NCBI GenBank assembly: GCA_903927025.1
Contig: CAIYLG010000062.1
Location: 1-64,000 of the forward strand
DNA: 64,000 nt
Direction of reading: 5' to 3'
Source of the DNA: an uncultured Armatimonadota bacterium
GTDB taxonomy: Bacteria; Armatimonadota; Fimbriimonadia; Fimbriimonadales; Fimbriimonadaceae
Part shown: piece by piece, positions 52,746 to 55,942 of the stretch
Layout: the number at the start of each line of letters is the position of its first letter
Position numbering within the stretch: the first letter of the stretch is position 1
The notes under the pieces: model-generated
Told to the model about the DNA's origin: nothing
The model's input: the letters and a program-made list of their open reading frames with translations, nothing else
Database searches by the model: none
Position numbers and translations under genes: made by a program

Positions 52746-54008
52746 ATGAAACTCCTTTTGCCTCTGGCAGCAATTACCGCCGCACTGCTTTGCGGCTGCA
52801 AGAAGCCTGTTGATCCTAAATTGCTGGAGAACGATCCCGCTTTCCAGATTGATGTGCTCCATCAAGAGTCGGCGGTCCCTGGTCATATCGTGCGGGCGAC
52901 GAAGGCGGGGCAAGATCTCCTTCAATACACTTGCAAGCCCGATGATGCGGCAGTGGTCATGTTCACCATGCGCAACTTGGCCAACGGAGCCAACGTCAGC
53001 ACAAAGGTTCTGAGCGCAAAGGATGAGAAAGGGCGCGACTACCTTGCGGAAGTTCCATCGCAGTCCGACGTTAAGGTCCTTGTCATCAAGCGTGGCTTCG
53101 CGGAAAAGCCAAGATCGATTGCAGTCGAGCTTGGAAATGGAAATCCGCAAAGCCTGATCAAATCGGCGATCAAAGTGACGGATATCACAGAGCCGAAGCG
53201 TGAAGTTTCACCAGCCAGCCCGGAAAAGGTGGCAGCAGCAGAAAAGAGAATCGCAGCGTTCGCGGATGACAGCAGTGGCCAAATTGAGCTGAGGAGTACT
53301 CTTCGGTTGGGAAAGGATATGTACGACCGTGGGGTTTTCCTGGGTCTCGCCTTCAGTCCTTGGGATCACGGAGAGCGCGCTGAGCGCGGGACTCTTCGAT
53401 CCCTGCCGGTGCTCTATGAGATGTGCACCGATTGGGTCAAGGTCCGAACCGATCGCTACAAAATCACCCATCAGGATTTTACGCTCACCTGTCAAAATGT
53501 CGAGCTCGTTCAGACAGGAAGTGTTACCACCATTCGCGTACCCAGCCGGCAAGTAGTCGGCAAAATTGGAGATCAGGAGGTTACTCTGGACCCAACGGAC
53601 GTTCACCCTGGTGGACAGAACGCAAAGAATTCGGAAGTGCCAACTCAAACACTTACCTTTCGATGCAAAGTTGACGACGCCGTCAAAGAGGGTTCAGCCC
53701 CAGGAGCAAGACGAGCCATGACTCTTCCGATCTCTGTGACTTCTGTCTCGCCAACTCTGGGTTCGCTCGGCATTCGCAGACTGCGCGTTATCGTTGTGGA
53801 CGAGCATCCCCATCGGCCCAACTCACCTGAGTTGGCCTGGATTTTTGCATCGAATCCACGCGCAAATGCCTCCCAAATCTCCAAATTAAAGGAACTGACA
53901 ATTTCGGGTACGACGTCGACAACAGTCAAGGTCGGTTCAGATACCTATATCCTGCCGGTTCACCACTTCGACACCTTTGGTCAACGCCCCCATGCCATGG
54001 GCGCTTAG
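52746..54008 (+). CDS. Putative lipoprotein, 420 residues
   Basis: The N-terminus (MKLLLPLAAITAALLCGCKK) has a hydrophobic signal segment ending in LCGC, a plausible though unusual lipobox with Cys18 as lipidation site (Cys also at position 16). The rest is soluble and Lys/Val/Thr-rich, with DPTDVHPGGQNAKNSEVPTQ in the middle and a C-terminal segment near KVGSDTYILPVHHFDTFGQ. I recognise no family. The gene is divergent from the large BNR protein, sharing a 153-base intergenic region, and is 56 bases upstream of modA. Confidence 0.75.
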   Translation: MKLLLPLAAITAALLCGCKKPVDPKLLENDPAFQIDVLHQESAVPGHIVRATKAGQDLLQYTCKPDDAAVVMFTMRNLANGANVSTKVLSAKDEKGRDYLAEVPSQSDVKVLVIKRGFAEKPRSIAVELGNGNPQSLIKSAIKVTDITEPKREVSPASPEKVAAAEKRIAAFADDSSGQIELRSTLRLGKDMYDRGVFLGLAFSPWDHGERAERGTLRSLPVLYEMCTDWVKVRTDRYKITHQDFTLTCQNVELVQTGSVTTIRVPSRQVVGKIGDQEVTLDPTDVHPGGQNAKNSEVPTQTLTFRCKVDDAVKEGSAPGARRAMTLPISVTSVSPTLGSLGIRRLRVIVVDEHPHRPNSPELAWIFASNPRANASQISKLKELTISGTTSTTVKVGSDTYILPVHHFDTFGQRPHAMGA

Positions 54009-54064: not shown

Positions 54065-55165
54065 ATGCAGGGAAGGAGATGGTTTGCCGCAGCCGGGCTC
54101 TTTGTATCGCTATGTACGGCTAAGGGGCAGACGTTCAATATCTATGCCGCAGCCTCACTTAAAGAGTCCATAAAGGAGATATCGAAAGACTTCGAAAAGC
54201 GATACCCAAACTTTCATGTGGCCGTCACGCTTGGAGGATCACAGCAGCTCGCCGCTCAAATAAGACAAGGGGCACCTGCAGATGTTCTCCTCAGCGCTGG
54301 AATGGAGCAGTTGAAGGGTCTTCCCTACGATCCTGCTTCCCTGAGAATTTTCGCCTACAACACTCTTGCTATCGTCGTGCCGGCGCAGTCAACGGAAGTG
54401 CAATCTTTGCAAGACCTGGCAAAGACACACCTTCTGATCGTGGCGGATAAGGCAGTTCCGGTCGGAAGTTACACGCTTCAGATGCTCTCCAAGGCAGAGC
54501 GAAAGCTCGGCCAAAGCTGGCGGGCACGCGTAGAGAGCCGCATCATTTCACGGGAACATGACGTGCGTTCGGTGCTTGCTAAGGTTGCCCTCGGAGAGGC
54601 GGATGCTGGGATTGTCTACACAACGGACGTGTCGACGGCAGGTCAAAGGGTCAGAATGATCTCCATCCCTGACGATCAGAACATTGAAGCAGCCTATCCG
54701 GCGGTCAGATTCACCACATCTCCCAATGCCGATTTGGCAAAAGACTTTATGCGCTTTCTCTTCGAGAAGCAAGCCCAAAAGGCTCTCGTCAACCACGGAT
54801 TCAGTTCCCCGATCATCCCCGGAGGCTCAATTCAGCTTTCAGATCACGGCAAATCCAGCCTGCTGACCGCAAGGCGAATCCGCAGTCTTCCCATCAAAAA
54901 CTTCACGGCAAATGAACATGGCATCGTCCGATCTTTCAGGGGCTATGACCTCGGTTTTCTGCTCACGGGAACCGAGAAGCGATTTAGAAAAACGATGGTG
55001 GAGATCTCCGCAGGGGATGGCTACAAGCAGTTCCTTGAGCTGCAAGACATCGTAAAAGGCGGGGGTTACCTAGTGGATAGCGCACACGATAACTTCCAAT
55101 TGATTCTTCCATCCAAGCCTCCAAAGTTTTGGGTTCATTGGGTCAGAGAAATCGTGATCAGATAG
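54065..55165 (+). CDS. modA: ModA-type molybdate-binding protein fused to a molybdopterin-domain-like C-terminus
   Basis: Residues 20-251 form a periplasmic substrate-binding protein of the ModA type, behind a signal peptide (1-21). It starts FNIYAAASLKESIKEI, has the oxyanion-binding GGSQQLAAQIRQGAPADV, and later VGSYTLQML and LGEADAGIVYTTD. This part would bind molybdate or tungstate for the ABC permease encoded next. Residues about 255-366 are not part of a normal ModA. They follow the pattern of the small sulfite-oxidase-type domain (PF00174-like): EHGIVRSFRGYDLGFLL, then VEISAGDGYKQFLEL, and a final FQLILPS...WVHWVREIVI. This resemblance is by eye. The conserved cofactor Cys is not evident. 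Confidence 0.85.
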   Translation: MQGRRWFAAAGLFVSLCTAKGQTFNIYAAASLKESIKEISKDFEKRYPNFHVAVTLGGSQQLAAQIRQGAPADVLLSAGMEQLKGLPYDPASLRIFAYNTLAIVVPAQSTEVQSLQDLAKTHLLIVADKAVPVGSYTLQMLSKAERKLGQSWRARVESRIISREHDVRSVLAKVALGEADAGIVYTTDVSTAGQRVRMISIPDDQNIEAAYPAVRFTTSPNADLAKDFMRFLFEKQAQKALVNHGFSSPIIPGGSIQLSDHGKSSLLTARRIRSLPIKNFTANEHGIVRSFRGYDLGFLLTGTEKRFRKTMVEISAGDGYKQFLELQDIVKGGGYLVDSAHDNFQLILPSKPPKFWVHWVREIVIR

Positions 55166-55168
55166 CCT

Positions 55169-55942
55169 ATGAACCTGAGGCGAGGAAGACTTTATGGGTG
55201 GCTGGCAGCAAGTCTGCCCCTCGCTGGTTTCCTGGCCATCCCTCTGCTGGCGCTCGCATTGAGCAGCTACCGAAACCGGGTTCCGATTTCCGCAGACTTC
55301 CTGCAGGCCATCTTCCTTAGTTTCAAAACTTCGCTCCTCAGCCTCGCTGTCACTGTTATTTGCGGTACTCCACTCGCCCTCGTGCTGGCACGAGGCAGGT
55401 TTCGAACACGACCGTTGCTTTCCGCTCTCGTTGACCTTCCAATTGCTTTGCCCCCAGCTGCGGCTGGAATCGCACTCCTGCTTGCGTTCGGCAGAAATGG
55501 TCTCGTTTCCACATCTCTGGGATTCACAACAGGTGCTGTTGTCGCTGCCCAGACGTTTGTTTCGTGTCCCTTCTTCATCCGGGCAGCGACCTCGGCATTT
55601 GAGTCAGCCGACCAGCATGCAGAGGAATCTGCGGAACTGGATGGGGCAGGGCCCCTTACTGTATTCTTTCGAATCTTAGTCTCCCAAACATCGCCTCAAC
55701 TCATCAGCGGTGCGGTCACTTCTTGGGCCAGAGCCCTTGGAGAATTTGGCGCCACGATCCTCTTTGCAGGCAACCTGGTTGGCAAAACTCAGACAATGCC
55801 GCTGGCCATTTACCTAGGGTTCGAGTCTGATTTCGACCAGGCCGTGATGCTTTCAGTGGTTTTACTCGGTATTGCGTTCTTCACGATTTTGGCGGTTCGC
55901 CTGCTCACCTTCCAAGGTCGCGCCTCCAAAATCGGCGAATAA
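55169..55942 (+). CDS. modB: Molybdate ABC transporter permease
   Basis: This 257-residue inner-membrane permease has about five to six transmembrane helices, the helical core SFKTSLLSLAVTVICGTPLA, PIALPPAAAGIALLLAFG (a typical ModB/CysT loop), and the EAA motif EESAELDGAGPLTVFFRIL that docks the ATPase. WARALGEFGATILFAG is also characteristic of ModB. It begins 3 bases after modA. The ATPase gene modC that usually follows is missing; uvrB lies downstream instead. Confidence 0.93.
   Translation: MNLRRGRLYGWLAASLPLAGFLAIPLLALALSSYRNRVPISADFLQAIFLSFKTSLLSLAVTVICGTPLALVLARGRFRTRPLLSALVDLPIALPPAAAGIALLLAFGRNGLVSTSLGFTTGAVVAAQTFVSCPFFIRAATSAFESADQHAEESAELDGAGPLTVFFRILVSQTSPQLISGAVTSWARALGEFGATILFAGNLVGKTQTMPLAIYLGFESDFDQAVMLSVVLLGIAFFTILAVRLLTFQGRASKIGE

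Follow-up and report, generated by a model that had tools for sequence, protein, structure and literature searches.

A ModA molybdate-binding protein of the Fimbriimonadaceae fused to a cysteine-less SUOX-fold domain with a possible likeness to the pterin receptor PruR

The SUOX fold (PF00174) is shared by sulfite oxidase, SoxC and MsrP/YedY, enzymes that bind the molybdenum cofactor (Moco), which is ligated by a cysteine. A variant of this fold without the cysteine has been described in PruR, a periplasmic receptor whose site for reduced pterins includes Tyr104 and Trp160; PruR signals to DcpA, it acts through contact with a partner protein, and its pocket is thought to be too small for Moco (PMC13259868). 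PruR is a stand-alone protein of about 170 aa whose gene neighbours dcpA or a gene for a kinase. The molybdate-binding protein ModA (TIGR01256), in turn, ordinarily stops near residue 250. ModA and the SUOX fold are therefore both known kinds, and it is their combination in one polypeptide that is new: no published ModA-SUOX fusion was found in the open-access literature, in a search that covered few subscription journals, in agreement with a first-pass annotation of this DNA that knew of no described protein of such design.

The stretch analysed here (the window) comprises 64,000 nucleotides from an uncultured bacterium of the family Fimbriimonadaceae, phylum Armatimonadota. It contains an open reading frame of 366 codons that runs from ATG to TAG without interruption, in which a complete ModA is followed by a tail. 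The features of this locus, all on the forward strand, are the following:

54065 to 55165, +, modA-SUOX fusion gene, 366 aa in a single open frame, kept at full length in five other genomes
54065 to 54130, +, Sec-type signal peptide, residues 1 to about 22, without a convincing lipobox, as judged by reading the sequence
54149 to 54799, +, ModA molybdate-binding domain, residues 29 to 245, TIGR01256 E 4.7e-40
54827 to 55162, +, SUOX-fold mini-domain, residues 255 to 366, without cysteine, assigned by model, Foldseek, VIA-align and hhalign to PF00174 proteins
55016 to 55024, +, D318-x-Y320, both invariant in six tails, aligned to N102-D-Y104 of PruR and to DGY of Moco enzymes
55091 to 55093, +, N343, invariant in six tails, aligned to N of DGNY in PruR 7KOS
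55130 to 55147, +, W356-V-H-W359-V-R361, with W356, W359 and R361 invariant, counterpart of MWVKWVRRL in a sulfite dehydrogenase
55169 to 55942, +, modB, ABC permease subunit, TIGR02141 183.5 bits (cut-off 182.6) and PF00528, 3 nt past the fusion stop

The N-terminal part of the protein does not depart from ordinary ModA: it has the ligand-site motifs, and modB adjoins its gene. Its match to TIGR01256 over residues 29 to 245 reaches 137.8 bits, against an equivalog cut-off of 62.5, and it is the single ModA detected in the genome of the window. The oxyanion ligands, which we take to be S31, S59, V133, V167 and Y185 from alignments and from general knowledge of E. coli ModA, include four residues (S31, S59, V167 and Y185) that are invariant in the alignment of the six fused proteins. 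ModA proteins are the nearest solved chains to this part, which in the full-length model gave Z values of about 17 to ModA structures; the ModA part filled this full-length structure search, so that the search did not cover the tail. The end of ModA falls near residue 246-248 and, in contrast with ordinary ModA, the window protein continues for about 115 residues (residues 249 to 366, approximately), close to the 110 or so extra residues placed there by the first-pass annotation. The sole cysteine of the whole protein is C17, within the signal peptide; the earlier remark that the tail has no cofactor cysteine was thus correct.

The three strings from which a sulfite-oxidase-type mini-domain had been proposed (HGIVRSFRGYDLGFLL, ISAGDGYKQF and LILPSKPPKFWVHWVREIVI) all lie in frame in the fusion ORF. 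When the tail of the window protein alone was used in single-sequence searches against Pfam, NCBIfam and PDB, no match was obtained. The best-scoring of the six known tails, that of genome G022, has PF00174 as its best Pfam family, with an E value of 0.002 and 18.2 bits, under the curated cut-off of 24. Searching with a profile of the six tails brought up a true member of PF00174 (L015) in a distant Armatimonadota genome with an E value of 1.2e-4, one genome among 291, and the same stretch of L015 scores 80.9 bits with PF00174. Likewise, hhalign aligned the six tails to 24 PF00174 proteins of the phylum over 96 columns, with a probability of 96.3% and a score of 62.2; in the controls, 200 column shuffles gave a maximum score of 21.9 and a probability of 3.5% at best, and the reversed profile scored 18.2. 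The window tail alone reached only 1.6% in this comparison, therefore the argument from sequence depends on the family as a whole and not on a single member. The top PDB sequence matches of the tail profile were PruR 7KOS/7KOU (E 0.021) and 7KOM (E 0.11), each weak alone and all of one family. The L015 gene itself (1238-1836, +, in G251) is split over two frames in a draft genome, by sequencing error or as a pseudogene. Weak PF00174 matches were also seen in G246, G187, G185, G179 and G272, covering only profile positions 8 to 86 approximately, inside proteins of about 370 to 1300 aa; these five partial matches could be due to chance, or the N-terminal half of the fold may have been put to a further divergent use in them.

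An AlphaFold2 model of the window tail, built from an input of three sequences only, has a mean pLDDT of 85.0 and a pTM of 0.79. In a Foldseek search of this model against the PDB the first match was PruR 7KOM (E 6.6e-6, TM 0.74); ten matches had an E value of 0.001 or lower, all of them PruR or SUOX-family enzymes, and 7 of these 10 were chains of the PruR pterin-binding protein. With VIA-align, chicken sulfite oxidase matched at a Z of 14.4 (117 residues, rmsd 2.6) and PruR 7KOM at 12.9; PruR as a whole lay at 12-13 and most SUOX-family enzymes at 9-14, and the first unrelated fold appeared at a Z of 5.2. From the concurrence of hhalign, the model, Foldseek and VIA-align, the assignment of the tail to the SUOX fold is firm. 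Structure prediction had been named in the first-pass annotation as a means to check its proposal, and the ModA fused to a SUOX-type domain that it described is borne out by TIGR01256 for one half and by the predicted fold, which is the SUOX fold and not an unrelated one, for the other.

With the PF00174 enzymes the tail shares a homologous fold over the 96 aligned columns, as well as the D-x-Y and P-x(n)-W-V-x-W-x-R motifs. It differs from them in that it has no cysteine, including the Moco-ligating one, and in that the tails show gaps in the hhalign alignment where the PF00174 proteins have the stretch bearing this cysteine and the GEPL-x-HG stretch; in addition, the window tail is under Pfam detection. 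Since the cysteine is absent and the two loops are deleted, it is very unlikely that the tail is a Moco enzyme, and Moco catalysis by the tail was rejected for this reason. Nine positions are invariant across the six tails; the invariant D318, Y320, N343, W356, W359 and R361 fall within motifs whose aligned counterparts in PruR and the SUOX enzymes are pterin-site stretches. The D-x-Y motif is present in Moco enzymes too, therefore by itself it is no proof of pterin binding.

Among solved proteins of comparable size, PruR (PDB 7KOS, 7KOM, 7KP2 and 7RKB) is the nearest to the tail: both are small, exported and of SUOX fold without the Moco cysteine, and PruR is the best match of the tail in sequence and in Foldseek. 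The equivalents of the pterin-site residues Asn/Asp102 and Tyr104 are kept in the tail as D318 and Y320. On the other hand, Trp160 is not conserved at the aligned position of the tail; assuming a gap-free last strand, it aligns to H358, a position occupied by H, R, Q, N, M and M across the six tails, flanked by the invariant W356 and W359. The tail is also some 20-25 residues shorter than PruR, so its pocket may be further reduced, and it is fused to ModA and encoded beside modB, instead of standing alone beside dcpA or a kinase gene.

In the window the neighbours of the fused modA are modB and uvrB, and among the ORFs listed beside it no gene for a DcpA/DTB-type sensor or a kinase was found at this locus. 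The modAB genes of the window have no ModC neighbour. No ABC ATPase above the ModC cut-off was detected in any of the seven family genomes examined (best scores of 152-185 bits versus 285); therefore the ATPase partner is presumably shared, and may be a general ATPase that the importer borrows. Upstream of the fused modA there is an exported hypothetical protein (52746-54008, +), present as a single copy in the window; in G020, four tandem paralogues of this protein (L052, 6438-11755, -) are 24-33% identical to the window gene. In G022 the fused modA (L060, 5684-6778, +) is followed not by modB, but by an O-acetylhomoserine sulfhydrylase-like gene.

The same architecture is present in five other genomes of the family, four of the same genus (G007, G018, G021 and G022) and one of another genus (G032), a result that speaks against the frameshift contemplated in the first-pass annotation, which had also proposed to search for the fusion elsewhere. 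The tails of these relatives show 27-44% identity, they contain no stops and they always follow a ModA; in G007 the fusion lies within a single contig of 5.23 Mb. Across 291 genomes of the phylum, the profile of the six tails revealed no further tails of the same kind. One candidate relative, L008 in G147 (E 0.006), was rejected as an unrelated larger protein, and the weak profile matches L016, L018 and L019 were discarded as unrelated ORFs. ModA is present in 21 of 85 family genomes, and in 15 of those 21 it is tail-less. At the same locus of G020 (uvrB, modB and modA) the tail is cleanly absent and the modA stop overlaps the modB start. Neither a separate tail gene nor a convincing tail remnant was found near the unfused modA genes. 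When 84,980 genomes of named species were scanned, the first query confirmed nothing, and the second, made of two exact peptide patterns, returned only two of these fusions, both from MAGs of Armatimonadota (L021 and L022); sensitivity was low and G007 was missed, hence the scan is too insensitive to establish absence from other phyla, and the spread of the fusion outside Armatimonadota is weakly tested. In plasmid records there were 212 ModA matches, none of which covered 80% of the query, and among the matches listed the alignments ended by residue 262.

Trees of the ModA part and of the tails give the same split, with the fused protein of the window's genome (G000) grouped with those of G018 and G021, and G022, G007 and G032 on the other side; the supports are moderate. 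In the ModA tree unfused proteins are interspersed, and the fused ones are not monophyletic. Given the homology of the tails and a tail tree that repeats this split, the simplest account would be one old fusion followed by later losses, within the limits of these moderate supports. The rate of divergence of the tail is roughly threefold that of the ModA part, with a median end branch of 1.29 versus approximately 0.43 for the fused ModA parts. Both this divergence and the relatives without a tail agree better with an accessory module than with one on which uptake depends.

The fused protein is in all likelihood not an enzyme. As a tentative reading, in which we place somewhat less than even confidence, it is a ModA molybdate receptor with a non-catalytic SUOX-fold module that works like PruR and holds a pterin-type ligand. 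The ModA part would capture periplasmic molybdate and deliver it to ModB, the tail would hold a small pterin-type ligand at a putative site formed by D318, Y320 and W356-W359, and the ligand-bound tail would adjust molybdate delivery or report the pterin or Moco status to a partner protein. The sensing role suggested by the first-pass annotation is compatible with the example of PruR. This PruR-like reading has against it the variable residue at the Trp160 position, the shorter length of the tail, the absence of a DcpA- or kinase-type gene beside it, the fast evolution of the tail and the tail-less relatives. That the receptor reads two halves of the cofactor, molybdate in the ModA cleft and pterin in the tail, and would in this way link molybdenum uptake, outside the cytoplasm, to the status of pterin or Moco, is a more doubtful proposal. 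Almost as credible as the PruR-like reading, if short of probable, is that the SUOX-fold tail holds no small ligand and serves for docking or stabilisation; it would then touch ModB, the cell envelope or a Moco enzyme of the periplasm and so help to localise or time delivery. The deletion of the two cofactor loops and the long end branches of the tail argue for such a role, as does the fact that PruR itself works by touching a partner protein (PMC13259868); however, the most conserved residues cluster in the ancestral pterin-site motifs and are not spread evenly along the domain.

The storage or handover of Moco in the periplasm, which the first-pass annotation had put forward, is disfavoured. 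According to this proposal the tail would bind Moco or molybdopterin and couple molybdate capture to the cofactor status; it has the fold and the D-x-Y and W-x-x-W-x-R motifs of Moco-binding enzymes, and one PF00174 enzyme with the cysteine is encoded in the genome as a potential recipient. Nevertheless, Moco insertion is normally cytoplasmic, ahead of Tat export. The proposal is further made improbable by the missing cysteine, by the deletion of the two loops which in the enzymes surround Moco, and by the view that PruR, although longer, is already too small for this cofactor (PMC13259868). We give similarly little credence to the tail being the decaying remains of an ancient fusion, with no present function: the fast divergence, the several apparent losses and the cleanly tail-less modA of G020, overlapping modB, would agree with decay, but six tails remain intact and open at this level of identity, with their nine invariant positions and a confident fold, and a neutral tail would probably have gained stops over such divergence. 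Lastly, the joining of two genes by a frameshift, an assembly error or gene calling is refuted, since six separate assemblies, including one that consists of a single contig, show the architecture and the frame is continuous; no point in its support was found.

In this protein a half predicted to capture molybdate is joined to one folded like the domain that holds the pterin of the molybdenum cofactor. The tail-less protein encoded at the same locus of G020 provides a natural comparison. The precedent of PruR, together with the fusion of the tail to a molybdate receptor, makes this protein a testable case in which the uptake of a metal may sense the organic half of its cofactor.
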